64,000 bases of DNA from Argopecten irradians (taxonomy: Eukaryota; Mollusca; Bivalvia; Pectinida; Pectinidae), in assembly GCF_041381155.1 (NCBI RefSeq), contig NC_091143.1, positions 29,513,331 through 29,577,330 of the forward strand, in the 5' to 3' direction. The notes beneath the pieces were generated by a model. That model saw nothing but the letters and a program-made list of their open reading frames with translations. It searched no databases and had not been told where the DNA came from. Made by a program: the position numbers and the translations under genes. Shown in pieces: positions 8,588 to 47,700 of the stretch. How positions within the stretch are numbered: the first letter of the stretch is position 1; each line of letters starts with the position of its first letter.

Positions 8588-8818
8588 TTACTCGAGTAGA
8601 TTTTTGGCTTTTTCTTTAAAATTCTCAATTTCACCATTTTTCATTTCATCCTGTCTCTCTTTCGTTTTCTCTATCGGGCCCGTTAGACCTTTGACACTCA
8701 TTTTGAACCTTTTTGAGTTTTTCCAGTGCATCATCACGCTCCTTCTCCGCCTGAACACGACGTTCTCTCTCGGCGTCAACTTTTCCTTGGATGTCTTTCC
8801 TTACACAGGTATTTACAG
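8588..8818 (-). CDS. Hv1 paralog, C-terminal coiled-coil exon
   Basis: The acceptor 'tattgcag' precedes 8,818. Joined to the S3-S4 exon, the frame gives 'VNTCVRKDIQGKVDAERERR' and then a heptad-rich, highly charged stretch ('ALEKLKKVQNE'), the expected cytosolic dimerisation helix. That frame stops at 8,646-8,648 after a low-complexity tail. A second frame, ending at a stop at 8,588-8,590, also reads as helix ('EIENFKEKAKNLLE'). The reading frame therefore seems to change near 8,665-8,705. An indel or a missed splice could explain this; the only GT..AG pair I see there would make an 18-nt intron, which is too short. Confidence 0.75.
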
Positions 8819-11800
8819 CTGCAATACATACAAAAATAATATTAATAAATCTGTTTTCGTATGATAAAACACAGTCGATATCATAGGTACCTTCCTATCA
8901 TCATGTTGTCATACTCTATGGGAAATTCGGTCAAAAAGAAGCAAGCTATACCATTGGTTATTAATGGGATGTGCTAGGTATTGTGAAACAACAAAAAGTG
9001 ATATGTTGCGTGAATCTTGTTTTTCATGTTTTGTTAGTAGCTGATTCCGCCATATTTGATTCATGGGTTTGTTTGTGTGTTTGATTGACAGCAAGGACCA
9101 TTTAAGGACATCCTCACATAAGCAGTGAGCTGCGTGTGTGCCTTTTTTGGGAGGCTGTGATATATTAGTGTATCTTCCCAACTGACTTTTTTTATTAACG
9201 TCTCCCTTGGCACTAACTGCTGTTGACCTTCAGTTGAGTGCTTGCTCCTGTTGCGGAAGGCCCTGGGTTCTGTCCCCTAGCCGAAACACACCGCTGTTTT
9301 GCGAAGCATAACGAACGGCTATATATCAAACTAAATCTAGCGTAGTTTCCTTGGGTGCTAAGGGGGATAACTCCCACTTAACGTAAATACTCCCATATTG
9401 ACATTTTTTTCGCTATATTTCATATTATTGTTTGTTATGGAAGATCATCGTCGTCAATTTTTGTTTATATAGTGATCACTATATAGTACATTGATATATC
9501 GTTCGATAAAGTAATGCAAATCCATACTTTAAATTTTAAATTCAAAATGTATAATTATTATGTGACAAATTCAAAAACATGCATGTTGAGATAAAAACGT
9601 TTCATCTGTTTTCTGTCAAATAATTTGCAGATTCCTTTGTATATCAGACAAGACAACATTTCTATGGGAACTGGGGCTATCGTTTTGTATACCTACGGTT
9701 GGGATAGACGGCTGCAAAAGCTTTTACTTGTATTGTAAGCTTTAAGCTAACGTGTTCAGTACTCACAAACTATCAGTTTAAAGAATCGCCACAGACGGAG
9801 TAGTATCATCAATATAACAGCGTCCCTCACGATATCGTCCACGTGTGCTACAGACAGAGATATATCCAACACAAAAGATATCAACACAACGGCGCCGTCA
9901 AACACCTATAACGGAATAACATATAATCTTGGTCAAATTTTACTTCTGATTTTCTATGGAATTTACAACTGGCCTTAAAAATTTGTATGTAAAACAATTA
10001 AAACGTGGGAAAAGGAAGTAATTTCAACAATGTAGACAAAAACATTGTCAAATTTTCGAGGCGATCTGCCCCTTTATCAATACACACAAAACGAACACGA
10101 TTACATAATATGATACGAACAGTTATTTAACAGCTCAATGGGGCGTAATTAACCCTTCGGCAGGTGACAGCCGAAGGCCGGATCTACCAAAATGTAGCCA
10201 TGCTGTTCGGTAGAACGCTAGAATACGTGCGGTGACTAGAAAGCGTGCCACATGCGAGTCAAATGTGTGGCGAAATTTATATCAAGTGCATGTTCATATG
10301 TAAACAATTAAAACCAAATAGAATTTTGTAAGCATTTGTGTATACTTCTGTCACTTTTAACTTAAAATATTATGTTTCATTATGTTTAAAATCTGGTACA
10401 AAAAAATAATTTACAATTGACCTGAATATTTCGGATTTAAACCAATAAAACAAAAAAGCATTTTATAAGCATTGCTTGTATACTTCTTTCGGTTTCAACT
10501 TTAAATGTATTTTTTCAGTATGTCCAAAGTCTGTTACAACTATTCTGTATTTGCATATTACAGAGTTACCTGTCCTTGCAGGTAGGTATAGTTTATTACG
10601 TCATGTATTGGTGAGTTTTAACATCACATTTTTTCTGAGAAAACGACACATAGTGTACTCAATATCTCCCAGGGTTCATTGCGGCACTTGCATTCAAATA
10701 TGGTGACCGCAATGGACCCCGGGAGAGATAGATTTTGTACTCACAAAATAATGATGCTAACCGATATTTTTAATTCATAGACCACGGTCTTCGCATAGAA
10801 GAGATATGACAATAGTAACACAATATCATGATAAGAAAGGCAGTGAGAAGTTGTATAAGGTACCATATTTATTTGTTCTGAACTATCGGTTAAACTTACA
10901 ATCTTACAGCAAACAGAATGGCGTAGAATTGTACTTAAAATATTGTTTTTGCAAGGTTGATTAAGCCATTGAAATATATAATGAAATCATGAAAAAAAGA
11001 GGATATTCTTTAAAGTTTTGATAGTATAATCTAAATCCATATCAATATGTCGTAAATGTATTGAATTAAATTGATTTAAATAAGATTTATCACCTTGATA
11101 TCGATCGCTGACTTTCGGATCGTTTAATGCATTAATTTCATCATACAAACCTCCAATTTGTTCTTGAAAAATGCAGATCCATCAGCAATAATTTTAAGTG
11201 TTATCTGTAATGATAATAGAAAACGTTCCGTCATTTACATACATCACCTAACCTACGCATTTGACGTGATAGTTTAATTATTAGCAACTTTCATACCTCA
11301 ATTAAACGTCAGAAGAACATTACCTTTACATACTATTTTGTCAAGAAGATTAATTCATGAAATCATAGAAAAATGTAAAATTCAAGCAAATATTGTTTGA
11401 AAAAATTCTGAAAAATTCTTTTATTTTTTAAAATTTTTAATCATTGTCAACAGTAATTTCTTTTCATAAAAAAACTAGATTTCCAAGAGGATTTTTCTAC
11501 CAACAGTTAGGAAGAGACACCACTGCTGATTCACTAAGTCATCGAGAGAGACCCGAAACAGGTGTTTTTGGTGTTCCTATCGGACTAAGGAAGTCTTCGT
11601 TAACACAAAATACCGCGGATGTACGAAGGAACCACTCACCTCTATCACGAATATTGACAGTATGGCGAGACCGGTATAGTGAAGGCCATGTTCTACCTTT
11701 TCTTTCTTTGAGGGCACTGACACTGAAACAGACGTTTTGCACTTATGAACTGGCTAATTATATCTGTTATTTAAAAAAAAAACTTAGATGGCAGTAAAAT

Positions 11801-19083: not shown

Positions 19084-19718
19084 AGTAATTTCCAAAATGT
19101 GTGTAACTTTTGATGATGAATGACATATTAAAATCTTATCTTGATTCGTGAGTATGAAAAATACGGCACATATAACTTTAAGCGTTATGCAATGCTAAAT
19201 GTCAAAGAATGATTATTCAATAGTCTATCTTAAAATTGTATGTGCCGATTTTTTCATATTTACGAACCAAGAAGATTTTGATATGTTGTTCACCGCAATT
19301 TACCAACGGATGTGGTTGTCTAACAATTTAAACGATTTTCAGAGTTTGTTTCATCAAACCTTATAGCTTTTAACTATTTAGATTACTGAAGAAAAAATGT
19401 CAAGATTTTCGCCCCAGTTACGACACATAAAACTTTTAAAAAGGGACTTTGAAATTAGCCCTACTATTTACTTATTGAACATATACTTACCATCATTATA
19501 TATATATATAATTAGTTGCATGTTATTTCGTTTTATTTATTCAAGTAGTCACCGACTCAATCAAAGCTTTGTATTTTGTGACAATTGAATATCACAGTTA
19601 AAAACCTGCACATATCATATGAGCAAGGGATGAATTATTTAGTTTATAATTTCCCTCAGGTCGACACAAATTTCAATCTTTAAACAGTATTTTGCAAAGA
19701 ACCTTTTTTTTGTAATAG

Positions 19719-19856
19719 GTTTGCAAGGCCTGACCTGTGACTTCGACAGCGGGCTTTGTGGCTGGCTGCAGATTAACAGAGACCAATTTTCTTGGAGTGA
19801 AAGGTCCGGTCGGTCTCCAGAGAGGACTTCCGGTCCACTGTCTGATCACACCGGAA
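19719..19856 (+). CDS. MAM domain 1, exon a
   Basis: 138 nt between 'tgtaatag' and 'gtgaga'. Encodes 'LTCDFDSGLCGWLQINRDQF' and the following 'W' plus 'TSGPLSDHTG', the canonical MAM opening with its two Cys and the DHT motif. Phase 1 at both ends. Confidence 0.88.
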
Positions 19857-22800
19857 GTGAGATATAACTCTGATGATTTTTTTTCTTTATCAAAATATAT
19901 CACTGATATATGCTCATAGATGTATTTTTTCAATCTTAACAAAAAGGTAAAATATTGGACAAAACCTTAAAATAATCAACCGCTCTGAAATTTGTATTTC
20001 AAGAGAAGTATAGTTTTGGGGAAGCATTTACGGTTTTTATGGTGTTAATCATATAATTTCATTTACCCGATGGTGATGTCATAATGATAATATTGACTCC
20101 ATTTGATCATGTATTAGGCAACGAGAACACGGAAAGATTCAGATCATGTATAAAATTCGTTTATTCGTTTTTGTTTTTGATGAATCTGAAACGGAATTTC
20201 ATAACAGGATTATAAAAACCGCTATTGACCCTTTCAGTTTTTACCATTGATTTGTATTGAAAACTTTGTATCAAATACTTGCCTCTATATAACTCTAAAG
20301 AAGTTATTTTTATAACAGATGGCAGTTATGTTTACATTTCGGGAGAGGAGAGTAGGGGCCCTCAGTCCGTCGCCATTTTGTCAAGCCCATCTTTCTACCT
20401 AACGAATCCAGTCGTACTCTCGTTCTGGTACCATATGAATGGTGTGGGTATAGGGAACCTTTCGGTGTTAGTCATCAACAAATATGGCGACCGAAGAACC
20501 ATATGGAGTAAACATGGCCGCCAGGGACCGGATTGGATTCAGGCTGTACTCAATTTAGACATGTCTGTTGAAAAAGTAAGTTAAATGATAAAAATAAGGG
20601 AAAATCCTTTATATATTCCGAATTTGCATATCACAGAGTTATCTGCCCTCGGTGGAAGGTATTGATTATGACGTCATTTCTTAATTGCATAACTTCATGA
20701 TTTTAAGAGAAAATGAAGTAAAAAATTGATGTTTCACAGCGGTATTGCGACCATGAAGCTTTAAATTTATTATTTTCAATCTAGACATTGTACCATGCAT
20801 GCCTTGCAGTAATCCATGGCAAAATAAAACATGTGTTGTTTTAATAATTCATTTGTAGGTCAATGCTGTTTGAACGAAAACGCAAGACAAAATCAAATAA
20901 AGTAATTAAACGATAAAAATTGATACACACTGAGTTTTCAAAGAAAAGCCAGTGAAATTGCCAGTTTAACCTGATTATTTGTTAAAGAGATACATTCTTA
21001 ATTGATCCGTAAATGGTATCACTTCCTTCCTCATACTTTACACCAACATCCATAAAGCGGTTCCCTTTTCTATGACAAAATATGTGGTCCTGATACCTTT
21101 ATTCGTTCAAATGCAATAACCAAATTTGTCAATAATTGGTATTCAAACGATTTTAGGAGGAATTTCATAAGAGTTTACCAAGTTTTCTGTTATGTTTGTT
21201 TGTTTTCCTGATATCTACTAGGTCATAAAGTACGAAACTCTGCATTTAGGTCAAAGTTGTTTCTGTATGTGTTTATCAGTTTACTTTGACATTTAACCTT
21301 AACCTTGCCATTGTGAAGACAGAAATATACTTCCTGGTCACATTGCACGGTTCTTATCTTTTTAATCTCATGTTGTCTTTGTTCCCACGTCACCATTTGT
21401 TTTCGTCTAAATAAAAAAATCTAAGGAAAATTGTCACCTGGTGAAATCCATCTCAATTGTGGCGGTACAATAATAACAGTCTTCATAGATTACAATTCTA
21501 CAACATTAATGATAATGCAGAATGAATTTCTATAGACGACAATGTTTATGTTTGCCACTGTCCAATTAAAATTTTGTTTTCATGTCTAATATTTGAACGC
21601 GGGAATTGAACATTTGAAAGTTTGACCATATTGATCAACTTTTACATAAGATTAAATAGAACTTGTTGAATTTCCCACCAACAATTAGTAAAAGGTTTCA
21701 AAACATTACATTCTCGATTACCTTTCCCTTACTAGACATTTCCAGAAATTCATTTTAAGTTTGGTTACGTAAACTGCATAACCAAACTTAAAATAAGAAT
21801 TAATGTCAAATGTGAGTACAATTTATTTAAATAGTTCGAAGTTTCCATATATCAGAGAAACACAATGACCTATGATATATTTAGGCTGTGTCTCACGATT
21901 GCGTTGTTGTAGTATCACGTGTGGGTGGACAGTCACGTGAACTATGATATATACACACACAGGTGGTAGGTCCCTCGTCACTAAACATAAATGGTCTTCT
22001 CTGTATTTTTGCCTTCTTTACTCTTCTTTTTATATGAATGTGTTCTGATGCTATGAACTGTATGACTTCAATTTTCGGGAATGACATGATGATGTGAATT
22101 TTATCGCAGGATCTTAGAAATAGTTACAGTATACATATATTTGGACCTATCCTTGTGTTCTATATGACAATTGTAGACGTTTTAGAAGACTTTTTTCAAA
22201 ACTCGATAAGAACAATTCTCTATATATGGCTAAAAATTCATGGATAAAATCATCACAATATTGTAAATGTACAGCCCTACGTTTAAGACAGGTTGGTAAA
22301 AACTACAGTAATAAGATGCATCATCAAAATGACGCTATTAGATTAGTTCACATGTTGAGCATGTCTCTATGAATATATGTATCTAAAAAAACAATTGAGA
22401 TTAGCTAAACTTGGACCACTTAACGAAAGGGCAAAATTTAAACACTTCAAAATTAAATATATTCAGCATACGACATTCTTCAGCTATCTAAAAGAGCGTT
22501 GATATTGTTTGAAATTATAAATTATGAATTTTCATTGACAGATTACAGTGCAATAGAAAAAAAATATATTTTTTTCATGTCATTAAAAATATTGAAATTT
22601 AATGGAATTTAAAATGTGGAATATTTTTGAAAGTTTAAACACCCTTAATCAAATAAATGTGTTTTACAGACCAAAGATCTTTTAAGTCGGATTTAAATTT
22701 CAAATTTCTGGCTTCTCCGACTCCTACGGAACGTCGCATATAAACCGATTTAAATTTGAAGAGCAGTCAAAGCTCATTTTACATTAAGACGATCGCATTA

Positions 22801-25800
22801 GGACAGAAAAATGTCAATCTGTCATATTTGCGTAAATTTAATCATTTCTTCTGTAGCATTTCAGTTTGTTTTATTTACAGATTGAATTTGTCGCCAGTGC
22901 GAAGTACCATTATAGTGCAATAATTGCAGTGGATGATATCAAAGTTAATATTGAACCTATGGGTATGTATATATTGTTTCCATGGTATGAGTTATAATTC
23001 AATTAAAGCAATATCATTTCGTAAAAGAAAAACGTCAAACTTTTGGACATTAACCATTCTTATTACATATGACATATAAATAACATAACATTTTTGTGAG
23101 TTTTAGATTCATATTTACTGTAATTGTTTGTAAATAATTCGCCAACGGAATATGCGAAATCATATCGCAGGCGTAAACAATTTGTTGATAGTAAGCAAAT
23201 AGGGAATATCTGAGTGGGATGTTTTAAATCTAATTCCCATCAAAAGTTGCAGGGTTGACAGCGGTGTCCATTGCTCACACGACCAGAGGACCAGTACATG
23301 GCGGTATGATATATTGATACACATTTTGTTTTTATATCAAGGGCCATTTTTTTTCAAGGAAACTTCTTTGTTATAACGGTATTCAATTACACCCTACGTC
23401 CGAATGCATTATTATTTCCTTAGTTCTATCAATTCTATATTTGTATATCAAAGTGTCCCCTTTTTGTGGGTACATATTGATGTGTACGTTTGTTTAAGTT
23501 TTTTTTTGTTAATGTAACGGCATACTGTTTGGAGAAAACATGGTAATGTTTGCCCATAAAATAATGGCATCATATTTAACACCTACTTAAACAAAGACAG
23601 GCATTATCAAACAATAGCAGTTATAAGATTATTGCAAATGGGAATCTCTGATTGATGAAAACATTTACATCGAATTGTCCAATATTTGAGAAACTGTTAG
23701 ACATGGATGTACAACATACTGACATAGTATCTAAAGAGTGTTGAAATGATCCTGAAACAGATTTGTATTTCTAATGAAAATTGGTTTTAGAGATTCTGTC
23801 TCCAGGATCATTAAAAATCTTATACTGAAATTTTGACTTAGCCGATCATAAATGATGAAACTTTTTGTTACGTCATCTTTCATTGGCTAAGTCTTATTTC
23901 TTTTCTTCGTTTTGAAATTAAGTCTGTTTCCTTATTCTTGGTTTGATAAGATAGGCTTGATAACAATTTTGTAACTTTGTATTCGTTAGAGAACTAATTG
24001 TCCCCAATACAATAAACACTTCAGTTTTACAAATTTTACAATTTTTTTTATCTAGGACGATTTCCCGACTGCAATTTTGACCAGTCGATGTGCATGTGGC
24101 AACAATCAACCTCAGACGAGCTGGACTGGCATAGAGTTCAAGGGTCATCTCCTGATCACACTTCCGGTCCTAGTGTAGACCATACTTCCGGAAGTACGTT
24201 AATGTTATAGCTACTTTAAAATGTTCGATCTATCATGCCTTCCATATTGACCTCTTTTAAAAAATATGTTGAAACATTTGGACTGTCTTCCTGCTTTAAG
24301 AAATCTAACCCATTTTGTGGTGAAGTCTGATATACTGATCTATATATTGGGCACTCATACAAATATTCGCCATAAATGATCCAATCACATAGCAACGCAG
24401 TGTGCTTCGAACTGATTCCATTCCAATATAATTTGTTATCATCAACAATGTCCACAAGTTTGGGCCAATATGTTCCGAACTGATACCTTTCCTATATGAT
24501 TTGTTATCTTCAACATTGTCCACAAGATTGGACCAATGTGTTCCGAACTGATGCCTTTCCTATATGATTTGTTATCATCAACATTGTCCATAAGATTGGA
24601 CCAATGTGTTCCGAACTGTTACCTTTCTTATATGATTTGTTATCATCAACATAGTCCACTAGTTTGGACCAATGTGTTCCGAACGTTGTTACGTTGCCCT
24701 TCTACAGTTAACGCTTTATCTATTTTCAATGATGCTTTCATACTCTGTTAATTTCCTACAAGCACAGTCTGCCATTTTAAAACACATTTGAGATGTGTTC
24801 CACGTAATTGATCTTTTAGGTGGTCATTATCTTCTCCTTATGGGTCACGAGGTCAAAACACCAGCATGGTCAGCACATCTTTACAGCCCGCTCATCTCCG
24901 TGTTCACATCAACAAAGATGACGTTTTGGTACCATATGAATGGGGTGGGAATTGGACATATTCGGTTGATGAAAAGAGATATTGGCACGACGGAAACTGT
25001 GATATGGTCAAAGGATGGAAGACAGAGTTCTGATTGGCTAAAGGCAGAAGTTACCCTCCACCCAGGTAGATATCAGGTATAAAGATTTTGGTCTGCTCTT
25101 TTTTTTAAATTGCTGTCAACGTTGACATTTTTTACTAATTCAGCTGCCAAATTGTTTGCGCTGTCTCTAAAGTGAATTTTTTGTAACTATCAATTTTTCC
25201 GTTTTCGCGGGCGTATACATTCGCGAGAATTTAATGAAAGTGAAATAAACTAAAATATATCACGTCACAAAATCCATGTTTGTAGTTACACAGTGCTTAC
25301 TATGTAAGATTACACAAATCTGTGAATTTTCGGAATCGCATAGATTACCACTGGCTGCTAAAATGACGAATCACTTACAGCAGTATATTCCTAATTCAAA
25401 TACTGAACCCGAAGTTGACACATTTCAAATACTGAACCCGAAGTTAACACATTTCAAATACTGAACCCGAAGTTAACACATTACGTTTAATGGCAAGTTT
25501 TCTTAAGTAAACGAGCTTTTTGAAAAACGAGTGTGATTTGAAAAAAACGCATTATCCAAAGAAATCAGTGTTTTAATTTCTAGCACTAGTTTGTAAATCA
25601 ATCATTCTCTAAGCCTCTTAACGCTGGTAGAGATCACCTGTTGACATTTCGAAATATCAGGGAGCTCTAGAGAAAATCAATAAACACAAGCGTATATTGG
25701 TTTGTCAAAACATTAAAAGGGGGCGAATGTTGGTTTCCATATGATGTGTTGATTACCTATAATCTAACGTTTACTGTGCGATGTCTTTTGGAGTAGATTC

Positions 25801-28265
25801 TAGTGATCGAACACTAAACAGTAGAGTCATTAGTTCAACGTTAACACAAGGAAACAGATAATACTATAAAAAGAGGAAAAAGTTCCAGTGTTCCAAGGAG
25901 ACACAGAAAGCAGATACTACAGTCTCTCAAAACATATAGCCATATACACAGCAACACATGGCATATATGTGAGGCCGTCCTTAAATGACCCTGGCTGTTA
26001 ATAGGTCGTTAGGTAAACCTTAAAAAACCGCAAAAATCAAACAAACAAAACAAACAAAAAACAAAGAAAAAAACCAAAAAAAACCGCGAAATTAAGTTGC
26101 CGCGAAATTAAGTTTGTTTATAGTATGTATTGCAATAGTAGTTTGATCATATCGTTGTATAGTGTTGTATTGTACTGTTCTATCGGCGCCCATATTAGTC
26201 TCGAACTTAATTATCGCCATCTCTCCCTTTGTACCATTTTCGATCTTTGCTATTAATTTTGTTATTTTCTCAACAAGTATGAATCCTTATACATAGTTGG
26301 GATTCTGGAAAGGAAATACGAGCGATGGAGAAGGAGGTTTCGTACCACTCGAAAGAATCTTAATGATAAAAGCCAGAAAGATAATTATTCATAAGCTTTA
26401 ATTTCTGTCTGGATTCACGCGGTTTGCGATAGTCGAAGCCTTCAGACACTCTAATAATAAAGAACCTACTGGACGTGAGGACCAGTCAGAAATAGATTGG
26501 TCAAGATGTTCAGAATACGGAACCCATATTTCACTCATCGCTAGTCTCGTGATTGTTCTGACCAGTATCGTCAAATCTGTCGATCATTTTCACCAGCTGT
26601 ACTGCAGCCCTTAACGACAGTATTAAGGTTTCACTCTTACTCCTGACCTACTAAAACAGTCTGATAGAATATACTTAGATACCGCAGATGAAAAAAGAAA
26701 CTGAAGAAAAGTGGTAATTCAGACACAGTTTTTAACAGAGATACAATTCTTTCGTTAATGAACATAGACGACATCACTTTAACGTCATGTGGCCTTTGCA
26801 TATAAACACATTATTTCGTCTGCAAGTTAAAGAAATTTTGAGAATTTGTTACCAAAGATTGCATTGAAAGATATATTTCTTAATTCGTTTTTCATTCTAA
26901 GATGTTTTCAAAAACTATTTTTTTTCGCTAATTTCAGCAGTAAATACCCTCACCATGCATGCAATGAACAATAAAAAGTAGTGTTTTGTGACGTTAATGC
27001 TATACCTTAAAAAATGGACAAACTAAAAAAGGAATGGTAATGCGTTTACATTCCTAAGGTAAACACAAACCACGATTACGATACTATTAAGGAGTAGCTG
27101 TGATGTATAAGAGACATCATTCGATTTGGCACAAGCAATGTATTCCGTTTGTTTGTTTGTTTGATTTATTAACGTCCTATTAACAGCTATGGTCATGTAA
27201 GGACGGCCTCCCATGCATGCGGTGTGCCGCGTGTATGTTGTGCGAGGTGAGTGTACTGGGAGACTGCGGCACGTTCGTGTTGTGTCTTCTTGTATAGTGG
27301 AACTGTTGCCCTTTTTATAGTGCTATATCACTGAAGCATGCCGCCGAAGACACCAAGCAACACACCCCACCCGGTCACATTATACTGACAACGGGCGAAC
27401 CAGTCGTCCCACTCCCTGTATGCTGAACGCTAAGCAGGAGCAGAAACTACCACTTTTATAGACTTTGGTGTGTCTCGGCCAGGGGACAGAACCCAGAGCC
27501 TTCCTCACAGGGGCGAACGCTCAACTCAAGGCCAAAAGTGAGGCGGTGCCAAGGGAGGCATTAGGAAAGATAAAGTCAGTTAGGAAGAAGAGAAAAGATA
27601 AGATCCTAAATTTAGTCGCCTTTTACGATCATGCAATAGGGGCAGCAGGTAAAAAAAAGATTTTATCATTATTTTGCATTTATTTTGTTTCTGCAATTAC
27701 TCAGAGAAAGTGATAAATTTGTTAATTACTTATAAATAACAGCACTTAATTAATGAATTAATATTGAGTTATTCGAAAAACATACTTTGAGTACTTAAGG
27801 AATCAACACAATGTTCATGACCATTTTCTCCCAGAGTTCATTGCGATTCGCTGATTTCACATTCGTGAATGTGGTGACCGCAATGACCCCTGGGAGAGAT
27901 TGTGCGCATATGACTTATACAATCCAGGAATAAAAAAGAATGAAAAATTGCGAGAAAAGACAAATTAATACGCGAGATTCCATCGTTTGGGAAAATTTTG
28001 AAAGGATAGGGGCTTCCGTCTTTTTGTGAAATATAAGTCAACCTAATAACATATTAGCGTATGCATTACGGCCTAAAGGTCCCCTGTTTTTTATAAATGA
28101 ATGCCATGGATCGATCGGGGGCAAGGCCTTTGACGCGAACAACCTGTCAGTGTCAATCTAACCCCAATCTTTGTCTTTCAGCTGATATTTGAAGCTTCTG
28201 CATTGCTCCATTATGGAAGTGACGTAGCGATAGATGACATTATCATCGATCCCCGCCCTGAACTT
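19719..28265 (+). CDS. Protein with two MAM domains (partial gene, six exons)
   Basis: MAM domains are extracellular adhesion modules of about 160 residues, found in meprins, receptor phosphatases and many mollusc secreted or membrane proteins. Six plus-strand exons with matching phases give two complete domains. Domain 1 is 19,719-19,856, 20,319-20,575 and 22,881-22,962; domain 2 is 24,056-24,193, 24,820-25,076 and 28,182-28,265. Each starts with 'CDFD.G.CGW' or 'CNFDQSMCMW', has the 'FWYHMNGVGIG' core, a 'W...DW' segment, and ends with 'A.DDI'. The first two exons of each triplet are identical in length (138 and 257 nt), so the triplet was duplicated. No signal peptide, transmembrane segment, start or stop was located, so the gene probably extends in one or both directions. 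A function beyond adhesion or matrix binding cannot be inferred. Confidence 0.85.
20319..20575 (+). CDS. MAM domain 1, exon b
   Basis: 257 nt after 'tttataacag', donor 'gtaagt'. Encodes 'GSYVYISGEE', a segment ending 'LSSPSFYL', 'LSFWYHMNGVGIGNLSVLV' and 'IWSKHGRQGPDWIQAVLNL', the central beta-sandwich strands of a MAM domain. Confidence 0.9.
20612..20712. mobile_element. 'TTTGCATATTACAGAGTTA' MITE, copy 2 (truncated)
   Basis: 'attccgaatttgcatatcac' 'agagttatctgccct' then 'ggtattgattatgacgtcat'. Left part only, 40 bp after a MAM exon donor. Confidence 0.6.
22881..22962 (+). CDS. MAM domain 1, exon c
   Basis: About 82 nt after 'ttatttacag', donor 'gtatgt'. Encodes 'IEFVASAKYHYSAIIAVDDI', the last two MAM strands. 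The usual final Cys shortly after the DDI motif is not visible in this exon. Confidence 0.8.
24056..24193 (+). CDS. MAM domain 2, exon a
   Basis: 138 nt after 'ttttatctag', donor 'gtacgt'. Encodes 'CNFDQSMCMWQQSTSDELDW' and then 'SSPDHTSGPSVDHTSG', equivalent to exon a of domain 1. The 'DHTSG' motif occurs twice. Confidence 0.87.
24401..24690. repeat. 68-bp tandem repeat, about four copies, in a MAM-gene intron
   Basis: The phrase 'gttccgaactgat' recurs at about 24,403 (degenerate), 24,471, 24,539 and 24,607, with a partial start at 24,675, a period of 68 bp. Unit bodies share 'atgatttgttatcatcaaca' and 'tccac.ag.ttggaccaat'. The copies differ at a few sites each. Confidence 0.85.
24820..25076 (+). 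CDS. MAM domain 2, exon b
   Basis: 257 nt after 'atcttttag', donor 'gtataa'. Encodes 'GHYLLLMGHEV', 'FTSTKMTFWYHMNGVGIGHI' and 'VIWSKDGRQSSDWLKAEVTL'. It has the same length and layout as exon b of domain 1. Confidence 0.9.
25397..25485. repeat. 31-bp tandem repeat, three copies
   Basis: Three near-identical units of 'caaatactgaacccgaagtt' plus a 'gacacattt' or 'aacacattt' segment. The array is short and lies in the large intron before the last MAM exon. Confidence 0.85.
25855..26060 (+). mobile_element. Long SINE family, 3' part only
   Basis: Forward remnant: 'actataaaaaga', 'gttccagtgttccaaggaga' and then 'aggccgtccttaaatgaccc', 'tggctgttaataggtcg' and an A-rich end with 'caaacaaacaaaac' runs. 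The head is missing or unrecognisable. Confidence 0.65.
27145..27650 (-). mobile_element. Long SINE family, most complete copy (reverse)
   Basis: Read on the minus strand it begins near 27,650, has a tRNA-like head with a B-box-like 'gggttctgtcccctggccga', a body with 'gctcctgcttagcgttcagc' and 'gccgttgtcagt'-type blocks, and the tail 'ccttacatgacc..agctgttaataggacg' ending in an A-rich 'aataaatcaaacaaac'. About 500 bp. It has no open reading frame of substance and is the best reference for the family in this window. Confidence 0.75.
27825..27901. mobile_element. Foldback element, second copy
   Basis: 'tctcccagagttcattgcg' at left is answered by 'cgcaatgacccctgggaga' at right, the same termini as the nested element at 10,663-10,730. 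The centre also contains a shorter inverted pair ('cacattcgtgaatgtg'). Confidence 0.6.
28182..28265 (+). CDS. MAM domain 2, exon c
   Basis: 84 nt after 'ttgtctttcag', donor 'gtaagt'. Encodes 'LIFEASALLHYGSDVAIDDI' and 'IIDPRPEL', the end of the second MAM domain. No terminal Cys is visible before the donor. Any later exon was not found. Confidence 0.82.
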
Positions 28266-28310
28266 GTAAGTCAAATGTTTTGCAGCTTGAAAAAGAAATA
28301 TTCTATCCAT

Positions 28311-28472
28311 TCAACATGTCATTGCATAATTCAGAGGAATTTGAATTTTACTTTTAATGACGTACGCTTAACCAACATATACCAATTGAATTCAACATGT
28401 CATTGCATAATTCAGAGGAATTTGAATTTTACTTTTAATGACGTACGCTTAACCAACATATACCAATTGAAT
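28311..28472. repeat. 81-bp perfect tandem duplication
   Basis: Two adjacent copies beginning 'tcaacatgtcattgcataat' and ending 'acatataccaattgaat' show no difference by eye, so the event is recent. It sits just after the last MAM exon and by chance lengthens an open frame there. Confidence 0.9.
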
Positions 28473-28849: not shown

Positions 28850-29895
28850 TACGATGGCCCATACCAGCCGACATGGCAACTGCTTTACTCAACTGTAGTT
28901 GTACACATATTTGTGGTGACTTATGACAACTGCTTAAGAAAAAATCAATTGCCAACATGATTTGTCATTTTACTCGTTTGGCTACTGCTTTACTAAAGTA
29001 ACTGTTTTGTCATTCTTACGCCGATATCTATCTGAGTTTGACGCTGTACACGTGTGCTGATTAAATGACCTTTGAAACCAAAACGATATTTTACGACAGT
29101 TTTCTTGGTAGAATCATTGGTAGGTGACACAATCTGTGTCTACTGTTGACGTTTGAATGAAAATAGGCTTTCTGTGAAGTAACTATATATGCGTTAAATA
29201 AAATTTAATACTCCTGTTTATTCATCTTTAATAATATCAGGTATTATGTGAAAATTTGGTTTTTCCCTAGGTAGGGGCATATAATGAGAAATTTATGTTG
29301 GGTGATGTCTGCATTGAAATTGCTTCCCTCCTAGACTGGCTACCAGTCCCTAGTATATTGGAAAAAAATCACAGAAATTTGGCTCGATTTTTTGTGTCTC
29401 TACTACATGTCTGAATTAGTTTGAAACTAAGGGGAGATAATCTAGCTATCATTTGGTTGTCCCCCTTCCTAGGGATGTAACCTCTCCCCATCCGGCTCCA
29501 AAATTATTTAGCGTTACTTACCGTACAATAACTTTTTACCACCTATGGCTATGTTATTTGTATATAACTGTAATCGCCTTTGTTTGGTAAAGTGTCGTAA
29601 AACATAATTTTGATTTCAAAGGTCACACCTGTACGGCGTCAAACTCGGCTTGATATCGGTGTGGAATGTTAATTGTCTCAAAAGTTAGACACTCGCCAAA
29701 ACGGCTGATATGGACCTCACGTAAGGATGACAAGACAGTTTCTTTAGTAAAGCAGTTGCCAAACGAGTAAAATGACAAAACATGTTGGCAATTGTTTTTT
29801 TTTACTAAAGCAGTTGACAATCACCACCAATGTGTGCTCAACTGCAGTTTTATTTAGTAAAGCAGTTGCCATGTCGGCTGATATGGGCCATCGTA
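28850..29895. mobile_element. About 1.05-kb TIR element inserted in a SINE, 6-bp flanking repeat
   Basis: The ends are inverted copies: left 'tacgatggcccatac', then 'cagccgacatggcaactgct'; right, in reverse, 'tacgatggcccatat' and the same continuation. The similarity extends in blocks to about 300 bp on each side (28,850-29,105 against 29,588-29,895). 'catatg' flanks both ends (28,844-28,849 and 29,896-29,901). I see no transposase frame, so it is non-autonomous. The termini contain tandem variants of 'ttactaaagcagttg'. Confidence 0.75.
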
Positions 29896-31104
29896 CATAT
29901 GGGACAGTTGTCAGTTTCTAACTGTTCGTACTTTTTCTCGGGATATTCTGACTTTCCTTCAACTCATAAACCTGATCCGTCCTTAATGACTCTGAACATG
30001 GACGGTGCGCCAATCAAACAAAAGCAAACATATGCATACGTAATTAACTAGTATTATGCAGTGTCAGCGGTGTAATGTCTTTAAACATATGTATTGCTAC
30101 ATAGTTATTGGTAAAGAGTTCGACATATGTGCTACTTTCAATACTTTCTGTTTATCTTCCAGTAAGGAGAGCCAGCAGAGAACAGTCACTTAATCCACTC
30201 GTATAAAGAGTGCTTTAACACCATGTGTTCCAGGCAATTTGTGTTTTGCTTTTATATTAAAATTAATTAAAAAAACAATATTTCACATGTTTGCTTACAA
30301 TTCGAATTGATAGTTATCATTGACGAAAATGGGTTGTGAACGATTCGAGTATTATATTCTTTAAGATAATGTTAATGTATTGAAGTAAACTTAATATCAA
30401 ATACAGGGGTTTCGAGATACCAAAGTGATGTGGCTAAAGTACGATTTGACGTCGATTAGACCCACCTTCCGGTAATTGACAGATCGCCAGCTGTCAATCA
30501 AACAGCGCGGGTACCGCAAGTGACTTTACATTTTGTATTGTGTATACTACGATATTTGCTCTGACATTGAAGGGGTACACATCCGTGTAATTTCTTCACA
30601 TGTTATACCCGATATTGAATTCCTATAGTAATAGTCTGCATTTACCATCATTTTACAATGATATGGACATATATTGTGACATCATGATAAAGACAGAGAT
30701 ATACCATCAGGACTCGAAGACGGTACACAAAAAATGTCGGGATATTTTATGACAAAAAAGGCTTTATGGATCACCACTGTAATGGAAAGTCTCTTCATTT
30801 CGCTGTCTAGACTGATATTGTTCTATATTAACACTGATATTATTCTCAACAACTAAATATATCGTTATCATTGTATGATAATACCGAAAAAGGCGGAAAT
30901 ATTCTGTTATGGGGCGATCACTTGGAACCAATATTGGCAGCAAAAAATCGCGTCTTCCCGCATAACCTCGGATCACCTCAGTCTCGATAACAGGCGATGC
31001 GTTCCGTTTGAACCAGTTGTTGAATCTAAGAGCTGACAAAGACGGTATGCTAAGAAAACAATTACAGTATTTTACTGAAAAAATAAAGGTTGTGACAAAA
31101 GGAA
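29841..31104. repeat. Tandem duplication, copy 1 (1,264 bp)
   Basis: Starts inside the right TIR of the DNA element ('actgcagttttatttagtaa') and holds the SINE tail ('gatccgtccttaatgactct') and about 1 kb of unannotated sequence. Copy 2 follows directly. About ten substitutions and two small gaps separate the copies, so identity is near 99% by eye. A minus-strand open frame in each copy (30,764-31,039; 32,024-32,389) shows no family I recognise. Confidence 0.9.
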
Positions 31105-32364
31105 ACTGCAGTTTTATTTAGTAAAGCAGTTGCCATGTCGGCTGATATGGGCCATCGTACATATGGGACAGTTGTCAGTTTCTAACTGTTCGTACTTTTT
31201 CTCGGGATATTCTGACTTTCCTTCAACTCATAAACCTGATCCGTCCTTAATGACTCTGAACATGGACGGTGCGCCAATCAAACAAAAGCAAACATATGCA
31301 TACGTAATTAACTAGTATGCAGTGTCAGCGGTGTAATGTCTTTAAACATATGTATTGCTACATAGTTATTGGTAAAGAGTTCGACATATGTGCTACTTTC
31401 AATACTTTCTGTTTATCTTCCAGTAAGGAGAGCCAGCAGAGAACAGTCACTTAATCCACTCGTACAAAGAGTGCTTCAACACCATGTGTTCCAGGCAATT
31501 TGTGTTTTGCTTTTATATTAAAATTAATTAAAAAAACAATATTTCACATGTTTGCTTACAATTCGAATTGATAGTTATCATTGACGAAAATGGGCTGTGA
31601 ACGATTCGAGTATTATATTCTTTAAGATAATGTTAATGTATTGAAGTAAACTTAATATCAAATACAGGGGTTTCGAGATACCAAAGTGATGTGGCTAAAG
31701 TACGATTTGACGTCGATTAGACCCACCTTCCGGTAATTGACAGATCGCCAGCTGTCAATCAAACAGCGCGGGTACCGCAAGTGACTTTACATTTTGTATT
31801 GTGTATACTACGATATTTGCTCTGACATTGAAGGGGTACACATCCGTGTAATTTCTTCACATGTTATACCCGATATTGAATTCCTATAGTAATAGTCTGC
31901 ATTTACCATCATTTTACAATGATATGGACATATATTGTGACATCATGATAAAGACAGAGATATACCATCAGGACTCGAAGACGGTACACAAAAATGTCGG
32001 GATATTTTATGACAAAAAAGGCTTTATGGATCACCACTGTAATGGAAAGTCTCTTCATTTCGCTGTCTAGACTGATATTGTTCTATATTAACACTGATAT
32101 TATTCTCAACAACTAAATATATCGTTATCATTGTATGATAATACCGAAAAAGGCGGAAATATTCTGTTATGGGGCGATCACTTGGAACCAATATTGGCAG
32201 CAAAAAATCGCGACTTCCCGCATAACCTCGGAACACCTCAGTCTCGATAACAGGCGATACGTTCCGTTTGAACCAGCTGTTGAATCTAAGAGCTGACAAA
32301 GACGGTATGCTAAGAAAACAATTACAGTATTTTTCTGAAAAAATGAAGGTTGTGACAAAAGGAA
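31105..32364. repeat. Tandem duplication, copy 2 (1,260 bp)
   Basis: Begins with the same 'actgcagttttatttagtaa' and ends at 'ggttgtgacaaaaggaaa', where unique sequence resumes. It is 4 bp shorter than copy 1 through a 3-bp and a 1-bp gap. Confidence 0.9.
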
Positions 32365-35300
32365 AAGTCTTCATTTCCACAGAAAACAATAAGGGAAATA
32401 ACTTTGAATATGTAAAGGTTATGAGGGAATAATGCTAATTGTGCGTGGTCAAATTATGTTATCCCGGCGTATTACATAATTTACACATGCTTAATTACCA
32501 TTACATTACCATAACATTATCAAAATGAAAACATATTCCTTTAATATACTTAATCTGCGTTTTAAAAAACTTTTCCAACGATTTATTTTCTCGATTTTCT
32601 CCTCCACAACGAAACATGCAAAATGTAATCTCACACGAAAATTGATCAACAATATTAAGGTATATTATATCATTTATTTAGATCGATATTAATCAAAAGT
32701 ATTCTTATCAAGTACTTTCGTTTGGAAAAAAAGACAATGCGCCATATACAAGCCTAGCTTAAACACACAAACTACGGTATACTAAAGGGCACTAAACAAC
32801 ATCATGCAAATGTTGGTAAGGGAAATGATTAAGTCCAAGTTGTTTAAAACAGAAACAGGCTGTGGTAAGGTTTATTGTAGTTTGATTATTATTCCCCAAT
32901 CGATGACTATTATTATGGTTTTCTGTTAATTCTTTCTCGGGGAAGTGGTTTATTACAATCGACAGTGTGCACCATGTCTAAAACCCGAGGATCGACGTGG
33001 GATAATTGTCTTTTATTAAGTAAATGTGTTAACTTTAAGGTAATTCAATTCTTAAAACGTTTGATACTAATTTTGTGCAGAAACATTTTCTGTATTTGTC
33101 ACCGCCTTATTATTCGTCTATATACTTTTTTCATATTAGGTGTCGCTTGATGAGGGCGATATTCTTATTGTTATATATGATCATCCTTTAGGCTATATCT
33201 GATACAGAATTTGTTATTTACTACGTGTATGTTCTCGTCATGAGATAAGGCAGGTTGGGTTTAACCAATAAGGGGTTGCCATGTCCGCCGTGTCTCGTAG
33301 CATCATTACACGCCCAGTCATGCTGCATCCTAAGTAAGCGAAGATGGATGTCCAGCAGGGCATTTATATCCCATACAACTAAATACGTTCGGAATACTCG
33401 ATTGGTGTCTATAGAGTGCATATCATCTTAAAATATATCGAAAACTCGGTGAACTGAGTATTATATATCGTATGCTACTGTATGGTTTTATCTATGCTTG
33501 CAACCCGACAGCTTAAACTTGGTTATGTTTTAATCATTGGTTATCCTTATTCAAAAAGAAATTGGAATATAACAAATATATTGTAATTATTTACGTCATT
33601 TAATGTATGGATCTATGAACGTAAGAAATCAAGAAATACAAAAATGTGTAAATTCTCATTCCCTTGAGATCCCCTAGACTACTAGCTTAAGTTGCGTCAT
33701 TCCTGCTCGTTCATATAAAGAGATTGACCTACCAGACACTGGTGGCACCGTACAACACGACATATTCCACGTCTGATCACTCATCGATCTCAACGACAAC
33801 GTTAGTCTCAAGATGCCTATACGTACACGATTTATATTGACGGATGCTTAAGTGGGCTTTGTCAACAGAAGATTCGCCTATTTTAAGGAATTATTTCAGT
33901 GTAAAATCAGAAATAATCGATGTGCAAGCTGTGGAGTAATAGTGAAACATACGTTCATGTAAAGATAAACACATACGGAATCTGTGTCATCCAAGACCTT
34001 ATAGATGTGAACATTACGTAACTGATGTCTTATCGATTTTCCGATTTTGGATTTTTAGCAATAATTGTTGGTTACATCAACCGCCAGACAGAACTAGAAC
34101 AGAATGGTGCTGATATGTAGCCTGTCTATTAAATCAACAAAGATGTTAAGAAATATTTCACGGGCGATATAGTTCCTTATTTATCATGAACGCTGAATTG
34201 GCGGCTGGTGTGAATGTAAATGGCCAATGAGCAATAGCAGCAAACAGAACTGTGTAATTTCATACCCTGAGATGGATCTAGTTGAAAAATTTAACAGCTA
34301 CTTATGGCCGAAAAAGTCGTGGAATTTTAATAGATGTTTCTTCAACATTCATTAATTCAGGGCAATATAGACAGCATATATTTACATTATCTACGAAGAG
34401 GAACTATATTTAGTGTATTAAGTATCCTTTAAAGATGCTCCACCGCCGACAGAGCATAAATGATATTAATCATTGGAACAATAATTGGTGTTTAATCATG
34501 TATATATATGCCTAATTAACACAAAAAATAATATAATGCCTTTGGTGCATGCGCAATCAGTACTTCATTCCATATAGGATATAGTGTCACTGATTTCTTT
34601 CGGGATGCAATTAATTAGTTTTCATATTTTAAACTTGAAGTAAAATTAGAATCTCAAACTTTTCAATGTTGGTAATGGTGTAAAGTAAGTAACTTTTGTA
34701 AATGAAGAAAAATACTAAATCGTTTGCTCCTGTTTTTTAAAGTGAAAAAATACCATTTGCCAGCGGTGGAGCATCTTTAATATTACCATCACTAAAATCA
34801 GAAATAGATTGGGTGTATCGATTGGCTTCAATTTTGGACATAAACCGCATCTTTAAAAGATAATTGTTAAATAGTTTCTTGAATAAAAAGTTATAGAATT
34901 TGGGGAAAATATAAAATAATTACATTTTTGCGTGAATTATTACATGCAATACTGATTTTGATCATTTTGAATATCTTTATTCAAGAAACTTTTTTTTTTT
35001 AAATTCAAGAATTTCAACATCTCTATATACATTATGTCATGCATTGCAAAGAAAAAATGTGTTGCTTTAATCAACCCGAATTGATTTGTAACCAGACGCT
35101 ACCTCTATGCTGAAATGCAACATCAGTTAACTTGAAAACAGGAAAGGATTTGCTGCGAACGAGGAGAATTGGCAGTCACAGCGAGCACGCTATATTTGAT
35201 ATCTAAGGGGACTTCGTCTCTCTATTTCTTGCATACTGGCGACAAGCGTTGACGAGGATACCAGCTCAGACGCGTTTACTTCAAGAAATCAAGCTTGTTT

Positions 35301-41700: not shown

Positions 41701-44700
41701 TAAGATATAAATATGTACCTTTATTTTAATTTAATTTTATTTTCATTGAATATAATATTTATTTCATTCCTGATGCTCTAACCATACTATTACCAAGAAA
41801 TAAATGTAGCAAACCATTTCCGCAAACTGCTAGTTGCTTTCACTTTAAAAGTACATAGATTATTAATTACTTTCCGTTATATCTAATCAGCGATCACTGC
41901 TGGATAAATATAGCACAAATGGAAAATCATATTTCCTAAATAATGCAATTACACAACTGGGAATGCTGCAATATGTTACATATATGAGTACAAATTATAT
42001 ATTCATTCTTTGCTCAACAATCGGTGTATTACCTCTGTATTTGCTTTAAGCCATATATCATCTTAAAAATGATTACATGTAAGCATTAAAAGTTGCTAAT
42101 TTTTTCAATAATTCATGAATAAAATGGCGGGGAACACAATAAAAACTGAAAAAAATTGTACCTTCCGCAGGTAGGTGTTTGACTTTTGTCCCCATTGCTG
42201 CTCTTAAATGCGACAAAATTGTGCATTTTCCTTTGTTCCCCTTATTTTTTGTCAGTCTAATATCTCTCTTGACACTGCCTCCTTTTTGGCAGTATTTTGT
42301 TTGTCCTCATAAGGAAAGCTCTTGGTCCTATCCCCTTAACGAAACACAATATAGTCTGTAAAAGTTGGAGTATCTGCTGCTGATTATCTCTATGTATGAA
42401 GAGAGTGGATCCAATTATTTACCCATTGTCAGTATAATATGACAGGGTTGAGTGTACTGTTCGCTGTTTTTTGCAGCATTCGTCAGTGAGTAATGAGCAC
42501 TATATGATGGACAAGAGTTCCACTAGTTTACGGTGTCACAGTTTGAATACATAAATGTATAAAACATCAAAACACATACACCTTTAATACACACAATTCC
42601 TCACGTAGACGGAAAACTGGAATTGATTTACGCTAACGAGTTAACATAAGATTTTCGAAGAATGACCATCGCCTGAGGTCATAGGCTAATAACGAGGTAG
42701 GGATTTTGCAACTGTAACCTTTTGTTTCAAAATTACTATATTGATGTAACAAATATTTTTCTGCTTTCTTTCAGTACTCGGGAGCGACTAGCCGAGTTTA
42801 TGAAGAGTAATCTTATTCAGTACGGTATCATTTCGTTAGTTGTCCTCGATAGTATCATCGTCATCCTCGAATTCCTTATTGACCTGGAAATGATACATAG
42901 TAAGTGTAATGTGGGATTCTGTGTCAGATTGTAATTTTGATTAATACAAAATTACTTATTTTTGGTAATTAATTTTGAACAGATAAAAACATGTCATATT
43001 CGTGCAAATGTAATATCGCATTACTACCGACATATCAAAAAGAAATATTTTTATAATTAATATAATGTTTTAATTTTTGGTGCCAAATCCATAAAATGTT
43101 TTGTAATACGTTTACAGTGTACCCTGTATATTGTAAATAGAAACTTGCTTGCGCTTCTATATATTAATCTGTGTAAGAATATGCGTATTGAAGAGTTACC
43201 TCCCTTACGAGAAGCTATTCATTGTTTTGTGTGCGAAAACTCATGTTGATGTACTGAAAAAATCTGACGTTACGCTCGCAAACATATGACGTAACAATAA
43301 ATAACTACATCTACATTCAAGGACAGATAACTGATAATAATATGCAAATTCAGGATAAGAGAAAGCAAAAACACTCATTTAAGACGTATATGGCATTATA
43401 GATCCACAGTTTTATGTTGGCTGTTACACGTTGTGATAACAAGTTGCGAATTGACGCAGACGATATGACCATGCGGTAAAATTCTGTTTAATTGATTTCT
43501 GTATAATCATGCAGAATATTTACGAGCTTTGAGGCAGTTTTTTTAAGAAACGAGATTTAAATCTGTTTTTGTTACGGCTTTCTTGTTTGTGTAATGCCTG
43601 GTAAAATCAATGAAATTTGAGCATTTCATTATGGACAGCATGTTAAATGTCTCTGTCAGCTTTATCTCTGTCTGTGTTTCAAATATCTCTGTTTTGTCAC
43701 CACATTGTCGCTCTTCCACCGGTATATGTCATAATATTTGCCATTATATGTTTTCTTTGAGACAATTATATAATAATATGGAGATATGAAAGATATTAAT
43801 CCGACATATTGGGCTAAATTTGAGCTTTATACTGATGTCTTGGTATGATTAGGAGCAGGTGGTGAAACGGATATTTTGAATCTACAACAACAAAATCGAC
43901 AGGATATCATCTTCTTGAAGCAATATGACTAATTCGTGCCCAATAACTTTTGCGCGGTACTGGTATCTCTAGTAGTAATGGAACGTAATTATTTGTTAAC
44001 TTCCCGTTGACATGACGTTGGCGCGGAATATCCTCTTTTAATATCATTCCATCACCCATGGAAATGATTTCACGTACCAAACACATGTTATCAGTTATCA
44101 CGAGGTACGTGAATGAGTTCCGTTTGAATTCTCGCTACAAATCATATGAAATTATTTACCAAATAAAGCATTATATTTGTGTAGATAATTCTGAATGAAA
44201 ATATCATTGACTTTTGTGCTTCTACCTGTTTTTTTTTTATTTCACTTAGATATCCTCAACATTTGCGCAAAACAATTATGTATGTAATATCCTCTATTCA
44301 GTCGTTATTAGTCTAATTAGCAAAATATTATTCTGTTTTTATCTTGTCATTTGCAGTACCTGAAAATGACATTGGCGGGTCTCATTCGCCTATGCTTAAT
44401 AGCAGCATGAACTACACCATGGATCATTATACAGATATTATTTCCACGTCCTATCCAATCGAGGAACATCCTGATGCTCATCTTGATTCGGAACACAGCT
44501 CCCATAGCATGGTAGCCAGTCATGCCGACCATTTAGATTATAACAGCAGTCATACCGGTCACAACCATACGTCAGGGCACGCGCATCACCACACCAACAA
44601 AGAATTTGCTGAACACATACTCCATTATGCAAGTCTTACGATACTTTCAATATTTGTCGTTGAGGTATGTGTCTTGTGAATAGTTGTTTTTTAACTAAGT

Positions 44701-47700
44701 AAGTAAATCCTTATGAATTATGCGTTATACAAATAATAAGTATCGCTCTGAAAAGTTACCTACTTGAAAATGCGAACAGAGCCTATCTCTTCATATTGTG
44801 AGAATGGCTGACAATAAACTGTATTCTTCGTCTGCTGAAATGTTTGCCAATGTATGGGCTTCAATTTATCAAGTCTTATATTCAACTATCTATATTAAGT
44901 TTGATTTCAATTTCAAATGCTAGAATGTTCCTGGAAAAGAGAATACTATCTGACATGAAATGAATATGCTCAATAACTCTATATATTTTTCCTTTTTGTT
45001 ATTATGCCCAATGTTCAATACATTTCCCTTGTCTTCGTTTATTCCTTTCGTCTACTACAGGTTATGGCCAAGATATATGCCGAGGGTACACATCTACTTA
45101 AACATAAAGCAGAGGTGAGGTGATTTTAATATATAGCAATTATTTGGTTTGTTAAATTAATGTCCTATTAACAGCCGTGGTCATTAAAGGACATCCTCCT
45201 ATGTGTGCGGTGTCTTACGAGAGTGGAGTGCTTAGTGCGTGTTTTGGGAGACAGTTGTATCTTCTTGTTGTGTGTTTTGTATAGTTGAACTGCTGCCCTT
45301 TTTATAGTGCCATATCACTGAAGCATGCCGCTGAAGATATCAAGCAACACACTCCACCCGGTCACATTATACTGACAACGGGCGTACCAGTCGTCTGACT
45401 TCTTCCTCTTATGCTGGGCGCTAAGTAGGAGAAGACAATATACTAATTATCATGTCAAACATTGCTGGACTTCATTCCATGTGTTGTTTTTTATTAATGT
45501 GTTTGAGGCTATAGTTGTGTGGTGTTTTTATTTCAGATGTTTGAGGTTATAGTTGTGTTGTGTTTGATTACGGGTGTTTGACGCTATAGTTGTGTTGTGT
45601 TTTTATTCCAGATGTTTGACGCTATAGTTGTGTTGTGTTTTTATTCCAGATGTTTGACGCTATAGTTGTGTTGTGTTTTTATTCCAGATGTTTGACGCTA
45701 TAGTTGTGTTGTGTTTTTATTCCAGATGTTTGACGCTATAGTTGTGTTTTGTTTTTATTCCAGATGTGTGACGCTATAGTTGTGTTGTGTTTTTATTCCA
45801 GATGTTTGACGCTATAGTTGTGTTGTGTTTTTATTCAAGGTGTTTGACAATATAGTTGTGTTGTGTTTTTATTCCAGGTGTTTGACACTATAGTTGTGTT
45901 GTGTTTTTATTACAGACGCTTGACGCATTAGTTGTGTTGTGTTTTTATCACGGTTGTTAGACGCTTTCGTTGTTTTATTTTTTATTACGGATGTTTGACG
46001 CTTATAGCGTTGTCTTTTTATTCAGTAAACATATTTTTCATTACATTTGACTTAGTTGTGTTGTTTTTATTAAGTGTTTGAGCTATAGTTGTGTTGTGTT
46101 TTTATTTCAGAGTTGAGGTAGTTGTGTTGTTTTGTTTTTATTACGTGTTTGACGCTATATTGTGTTGTGTTTTTATTACGTGTTTGACGCTTTGTTGTTT
46201 TTTTTTTATTACGGATGTTTGACGCTATAGTTGTGTTGTGTTTTTATTCCAGATGTTTGATGCTATAGTTGTGTTGGGATTTTATTACAGATGTTTAACA
46301 CTATAGTTGTGTTGTGTTTTATTGTGTTGACCTATAGTTGTGTTGTTTTTTATAGTGTTTGACGCTATAGTTGTGTGTGTTTTTTTAGTGTTTGACGCTT
46401 TGTTGTTTTTATTAGGATGTTTGACGCTATAGTTGTGTTGTGTTTTTATTATAGGTGTTTGACACTATAGTTGTGTTGGATTTAATTCCAGGTGTTTGAC
46501 GCTATAGTTGTGTTGTGTTTTTATTATAGGTGTTTGACACTATAGTTGTGTTGGATTTAATTTCAGGTGTTTGACGCTATAGTTGTGTTGGTTTCCTTCA
46601 CCTTAGATATAATATTCTCCTTCGTAAATGTTACGGAAGCGGCCAGAGACGCAGCCGGTCTCATGGTTATACTTCGGCTATGGAGAATCACAAGGATCAT
46701 AAACGGTAAGTCTATATATGGAGGATAAGTAATATGTTCTTATATTCGTGGCTATAAACTTTATTAAAAGAGTTTAATAATTTGATATACCAGAAGCCTT
46801 TACCCAGCGGCTTTTCAAATAATTAATTCCATGCTATCTAGCCACGAGTATAAGATTATGCTTATCAGATAATTAGTAATCTGAAAATATCGACAAAACT
46901 TCCAATCGGGGACTAGTTAGTTTGAAAAAGCTGCCAGAATTATTTTACCGTATGTAGTCATCTCGCCCAAAGTGCACAACAAAGCTAGATAAATACGTAT
47001 ACTTGGACGAAGTGGCGTTTTCAATTGATAAGTAAAGTATAGAAAATTATTGTGATCTGAAGTACACGTGGTATAAAGGTCATCCGAACATGACCCCTTA
47101 TGGGATGATGTCAGATCCTCTATTGAACGGAGTTTTTAACAGAATAAGATTGCTATTTTTTACAGGTGTTAAGTAATTGTCCTCGTCATGAATATTTTTG
47201 CCTTGTTACAGGTGTAATCATCTCAGTAAAGATGGACGCAGATAAGAAAATCGAGGAACAGAAGGCGGCACGTAGCAGGGCAGAGGAAGAAGTAGAAAAA
47301 TTGAAAACTCAAGTCTCTTCATTAGAAGTAAGATACTTCATAGCTAGAAATCGACATTGTTCAAACAATATTTAAAATCGTGTATTCTGGCTGATATCAG
47401 ATCCAGTAACTTCACCCTTATATTTTTGCATATTCATAAATTTTGCCCACAGAAAATCAATTGTGACATCATTAAATGTACAATAATTTGTCTTTAGGAC
47501 TCGGTCGAGTTTTATTCTATATATTTAAACAAATTAAATATGTTAAGTGGATGTTCATAATGCTGTGCATAATACATTTTAATCCATGCATTAAACATTT
47601 CATTAAACATGTCATAACCCATTCATAAAACATTCCATAAAAATGTGTAATATTATTTGCTTATATATGTTATCTCTATTACCTCTAGGCTGAACTGGAA

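Follow-up and report, generated by a model that had tools for sequence, protein, structure and literature searches.

How does a gene keep splicing correctly when the end of one of its introns, together with the start of the next exon, has been copied over and over in tandem, and how might such an array arise? We addressed these questions in a window of 64,000 nucleotides, the whole stretch of Argopecten irradians DNA analysed, which harbors an array of this kind at the end of an intron. The host gene had initially been annotated as the proton channel Hv1, and its joined exons confirm this identity by matching the PDB chains 5oqk (voltage-gated hydrogen channel 1, 1.2e-20) and 3wkv (ion channel, 1.7e-18), which we take to be human Hv1 and a chimeric Hv1 of mouse and Ciona, respectively. 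Pfam returns Ion_trans (1.3e-06), the S1 aspartate (VVLDS) and the S4 signature RxWRxxR (RLWRITR) are both present, and all five exons examined are open. The array-bearing intron (45115-46566) is 1452 nt long and of phase 0. Upstream of the array it contains a stretch (45180-45425) that presumably resembles a dispersed molluscan repeat; its 21-base core occurs once in the 64-kb window. The predicted extracellular S1-S2 loop of the channel comprises 17 histidines in 102 residues (translated from 44362-44667) and is possibly a metal- or pH-sensing loop. When aligned with the 5oqk chain, the S3-S4 loop lacks the histidine present there.

Features of the array, its host gene and the second Hv1 gene. 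Positions are those of the window.
Feature	Position	Strand	Remarks
Hv1 exon with S1	42775..42899	+	Asp in VVLDS; boundaries by eye
Hv1 exon with His-rich S1-S2 loop and start of S2	44357..44664	+	boundaries by eye
Preceding Hv1 exon	45061..45114	+	donor GAG|gtgagg
Partial left unit	45480..45498	+	begins TGTGTTG, ends AAT without AG
29 full units of ~38 bp	45499..46566	+	exon-start copy (24 bases), then T-rich tract
Interior units 13-26	45916..46416	+	53/56 array indels; letters less trustworthy or truly degenerate
Two-unit block, present twice	46417..46566 (46417-46491, 46492-46566)	+	73/75 identical; ends at true acceptor
S3-S4 exon of Hv1	46567..46705	+	139 nt, phase-0 start, donor G|GTAAGT
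TGTGTTG in exon	46584..46590 (+18 to +24)	+	right periodicity edge; proposed exon half of seed repeat
Hv1 exon with end of S4 and start of coiled coil	47212..47327	+	boundaries by eye
Second Hv1 gene	8712-12601	-	~30 kb from array-bearing Hv1, opposite orientation
S1 of second Hv1 gene	12601-12518	-	
S2 of second Hv1 gene	11711-11637	-	
54-nt exon of second Hv1 gene	11204-11151	-	
Homologous intron of second Hv1 gene	9906..11150	-	1245 nt
S3-S4 stretch of second Hv1 gene	9905-9771	-	same exon start and acceptor position; no array
Coiled-coil-like stretch of second Hv1 gene	near 8816-8712	-	E 6.0; accepted for order and strand only

TRF delimits the array at 45480-46594, with a period of 38, 30.3 copies and a score of 1067, the score rising to 1205 at period 76. 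Aligned cyclically to a 38-base unit that starts with the first base of the exon, it divides into 31 segments: the partial left unit, 29 full units, and the exon copy itself, which starts at 46567. The array had been described as about 28 tandem 38-bp units preceding the S3-S4 exon, and both methods bear this out, the exact number being approximate and the interior letters uncertain. A 23-base unit probe, allowed up to 3 mismatches, finds 17 matches in the 64-kb window, all 17 inside the array; the mean over 100 shuffles is 0.00. Mean pairwise identity among the 29 units is ~80% by edit distance. Set against the concerted evolution of internal units, with the cluster boundaries excluded, that would mark a mirage, units 5 to 7 are identical and units 2 and 3 diverged, but units 13 to 26 are the most degenerate. 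Indels are nearly absent from both array ends and crowd into the interior (p ~0.0005 by permutation over any 14-unit block, a block size chosen after viewing). Units 14 and 20, picked as the closest pair among the degenerate units, share variants to the point that their edit distance is 4, as against a mean of 10.9 (P 0.00015) in a simulation that assumes independent changes. Part of the interior degeneracy thus appears to be inherited.

Each unit begins with a copy of the exon start, followed by a T-rich tract that measures 13-14 bases in regular units. Against the exon's first 24 bases, the 29 units match at 15 to 24 positions, two of them perfectly. Twenty of the 29 carry a terminal AG; the one in unit 30 is the true acceptor. 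In one further unit, unit 26, the AG is displaced by one base. The initial annotation had every unit consist of a polypyrimidine tract, an AG and about 24 exon bases; this composition stands, except that 9 of 29 units lack the terminal AG. A branch-site-like YTNAY motif lies in the first 14 bases of 23/29 units (as TTGAC in regular units), some 30 bases ahead of the end of its own unit. In 14/29 units YTNAY is combined with a terminal AG and a unit length of 36-39, and by this simple test these would qualify as complete three-prime splice modules. Selection against decoy AGs was also considered: the A of the terminal AG is altered in 8/29 units, compared with 12/116 cells in a set of four further A columns (Fisher p 0.03, to be read with the fact that units are not independent). 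The first A column, altered in 14/29, was left out of this test since its A/G polymorphism also occurs in the exon. In base composition, 51.1% of the transcribed strand of the array is T and 24.0% is G.

To follow the consequences of acceptor choice, every AG in the array was taken as an acceptor and translated past the donor and on into the exon that follows. Among the 53, only the last, which starts the exon at 46567, gives an open frame; the other 52, of which 16 are likewise in frame 0, each yield no more than 49 codons before a stop. The claims that the last acceptor is required and that an earlier one truncates the channel before S4 are thereby upheld by the reading frame, the latter for 52 of 52. 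The predicted product of a regular decoy starts with VFDAIVVL or MFDAIVVL and stops before S4. It was also proposed that a decoy meets an in-frame 'tag' in the next unit. This is correct for regular 38-nt units, where 17 codons precede the stop, and does not extend to other lengths: a decoy before a 37-nt unit gives 14 codons and then a different stop.

The true acceptor is not distinguished by its pyrimidine tract. Between positions -20 and -4 it has 10 pyrimidines of 17, fewer than 17 of the 19 unit-end decoys; it ties with one and exceeds one. Since 17 of the 19 decoys are richer in pyrimidines, the last acceptor is unlikely to be chosen by local tract strength, and from its sequence the weak true acceptor might allow some mis-splicing, or real leakage. 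What sets it apart is that it alone is followed by the whole 139-nt exon with the GTAAGT donor, the decoys carrying about 24 exon bases. For this reason the spliceosome probably picks the last acceptor by exon definition. Duplicated acceptors were reportedly studied in experiments by Reed and Maniatis. Mis-spliced products would carry early stops, all of them with further junctions downstream, a situation in which decay is to be expected; they would probably be removed by nonsense-mediated decay, and the net effect of the array on the Hv1 gene is probably small. It is from the reading frame that use of the last acceptor is predicted.

We also looked at RNA structure and pairing. Just left of the array (45445-45462) there are inverted matches of 18 nt to several units, in the portion copied from the exon start. 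In the 100-nt left flank, the longest exact complement to the units is 9 nt, a length reached by 1.9% of 3125 windows; of these windows, 6.1% attain the duplex energy of the flank. An overlapping left-flank piece from 45365 has a duplex energy of -40.8, below the 1st percentile (-39.8). For the whole 365 nt to the left of the array, the best duplex piece is equalled in 6.1% of 411 stretches of equal length and in 14% of 200 shuffles, and a docking site in this region was set aside as weak on these controls. Stable RNA structure was rejected for the array itself, whose mean of -32.7 per 200 nt (9 pieces) is nothing special against a background of -35.5. Searches of the 64-kb window for known RNA families and tRNAs at default thresholds gave no hit, as did those for relatives of the window sequence in prokaryote and viral collections and for an exact probe in viral contigs.

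The window contains a second Hv1 gene, which offers a comparison without the array. It shares the short exon and the intron, and its exon start matches that of the array-bearing gene at 19/24 bases. Neither an array nor TGTGTTG was found in its 1245-nt homologous intron. Its S4 reads RLWRFFK, which fits RxWRxxK, described as the molluscan HV4 pattern and given also for fungal channels in the available text of PMC10377628; by sequence the gene may be termed HV4-like. Because this gene has the same intron and exon start without the array, and because the exon segment is conserved in solved Hv1 chains as well as in the second gene, the array is most simply seen as derived and copied from the exon, not the reverse. 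Between the two Hv1 genes lie MAM-domain exons on the plus strand (19643-28308). Three of the ten stretches tested there pass Pfam MAM (19643, 20261, 24792), and a fourth (28134) falls below the cut-off with an E of 0.052. The S4 motif of the second gene would by itself suggest a bivalve as the probable source, and MAM-domain exons flanked by two Hv1 genes argue for an animal over a fungus.

The periodicity of the array runs from the TGTGTTG at 45480 to the TGTGTTG in the exon, which suggests how the copying could have begun. The ancestral acceptor would have been located between two copies of this heptamer, one intronic, before the pyrimidine tract, and one exonic. Slippage or unequal exchange between them would have duplicated the intervening 38 bp, and further rounds of either process would have enlarged the array into the unit pattern observed. 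TGTGTTG may thus be the direct repeat that seeded the array. It is weak evidence, because 7-bp direct repeats with a period of 25-60 span 1378 of 8815 sampled window positions (15.6%). Growth looks at least partly recent, as units 5 to 7 are identical and a 75-bp block has been doubled with 73 of 75 bases unchanged. Taken as a whole, we consider it quite probable that the array is a minisatellite of the type called mirage, which arose by tandem duplication of the boundary and was then expanded, with the last acceptor in use and little net effect on the gene.

Tandem repeats at splice boundaries are known from other genomes. The mirages of amphioxus Adh3 were reportedly described by Canestro et al. 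in 2002. According to the available text of PMC3087553, which uses the name for the boundary repeats at this gene, they show length and somatic instability, and Adh3 data together with RT-PCR in amphioxus suggest no interference with regular splicing. As quoted there and in PMC3902484, their units of 10-72 bp lie across the exon-intron boundary and are short like those of the Hv1 array, and they are said to give no aberrant mRNA. The mirage of the amphioxus globin gene BflGb6 (PMC3087553, as excerpted) likewise duplicates the 3' end of an intron and the 5' part of the next exon, and many, not all, of its units retain AG/GT signals. It differs in having 150-160 bp units in 3-6 copies, compared with 29 copies of ~38 bp, and in belonging to a lancelet and not a bivalve. 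Further lancelet repeats, in PGBD5 and troponin C, coincide or overlap with splice sites as the Hv1 array does; those of PGBD5 measure 60 and 108 bp, and the 108-bp triplication has far fewer copies than the Hv1 array and, like the troponin C repeat, lies in another gene and another phylum (PMC3902484, as excerpted). Human paralogs from segmental duplications have variable tandem repeats of ~30-bp units, with ~4 copies on average, in exons or at exon-intron boundaries, which may lead to novel introns according to the portion of PMC2812944 available. Boundary repeats as such are thus not restricted to lancelets. What that portion describes are repeats inside exons that turn into novel introns, and no intronic array of acceptor copies such as that of Hv1 was found in it.

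NAGNAG and other tandem acceptors also compete with each other, as would those of the Hv1 array, and they usually add or remove a few bases to give usable isoforms. The Hv1 array differs in that 1 of its 53 AGs keeps the frame. Its units span the intron-exon boundary, the authentic boundary adjoins them, and many units keep the AG. By its sequence, the array appears to belong to the known mirage kind and to carry it from lancelets to another phylum; its short unit, copy number, phylum and the cost of a splicing error would be its unusual traits. Our literature searches, which covered open-licence papers, found no mollusc case of a splice-boundary minisatellite. Other minisatellites occur in the window at 24401-24684 (68 bp x 4.2), 25395-25482 (29 bp x 3.0) and 28309-28472 (81 bp x 2.0), and none was noticed to span a splice site, the sequence itself being inspected for 28309-28472 only. 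The window also contains similar ORFs twice, ~1.26 kb apart (29818-32434), with LQFYLVKQLPCRLIWAIVHMGQLS at 29818 and 31079 on the plus strand and ENNISVNIEQYQSRQRNEETFHYSGDP at 30767 and 32027 on the minus strand. This region might be a segmental copy or a mobile element.

Several other readings of the array were weighed. Array length might conceivably tune Hv1 output, a proposal that none of the results supports. A neutral expansion tolerated by splicing fits better, both because amphioxus mirages are reported, in the texts available, not to disturb splicing and because units 5 to 7, which look freshly copied, keep full acceptors. Tuning could operate as a rheostat with poison acceptors, in which some of the transcripts would always splice to an upstream acceptor, run into a stop and be degraded, and array length would set the output. 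The array does offer 19 unit-end decoys with an AG, 17 of them pyrimidine-richer than the true acceptor, and early stops from all 52 other AGs, but published AG-carrying mirages are reported to be correctly spliced (PMC3087553 and PMC3902484, as excerpted), and we think a rheostat improbable. We give a little less credence still to a length-variable form, in which the pyrimidine-better decoys divert Hv1 transcripts to decay and unequal exchange, even somatic, varies output between individuals. The UUGUGUUGUGUUUUU tracts could also form a UG/U-rich repressor platform that binds CELF- or TDP-43-type proteins and causes skipping of the S3-S4 exon. The (TG)mTn tract before CFTR exon 9 is a parallel for skipping through UG-binding proteins, the transcribed strand of the array is rich in T and G as such a platform would be, and loss of the 139-nt exon would shift the frame. 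This composition, however, is simply what copies of the exon start and the pyrimidine tract would give, and we regard the platform as very improbable.

The state of the interior bears on another alternative, namely that the array is real and that its length or interior letters are wrong, the long reads having been left unpolished in the middle. An array would be expected to decay first at its edges, and the crowding of 53 of the 56 indels in units 13 to 26 is unlike this expectation; it would count against the mirage reading and fits a partial consensus artefact. The BflGb6 mirage was itself aberrant in the amphioxus draft assembly, as its authors state in the available text of PMC3087553. Random errors, on the other hand, would not give the variants common to units 14 and 20, and we judge such an artefact unlikely, though well short of negligible. 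The copies might finally be raw material for a new exon or intron, as in the models proposed for amphioxus globins (PMC3087553) and human boundary repeats (PMC2812944) in the portions of those papers available. Against such an intermediate, the donors within the array look weak by eye (AG|GTGTTT) and every upstream acceptor meets a stop, leaving no usable exon at present; we rate it the least probable of these readings. An expanded boundary duplication of the mirage type thus remains the reading that we favor.

The Hv1 array has more copies than the known mirages compared here, as far as these are described in the portions of the papers available, and every wrong choice of acceptor within it destroys the channel. 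With its 19 unit-end decoys, 17 of them richer in pyrimidines than the true site, it is a natural test of whether the last acceptor is chosen through exon definition or through a scan that starts at the branch site, and also of how splice-site minisatellites arise. If array length did act as a rheostat, proton-channel output would vary between individuals by unequal exchange.
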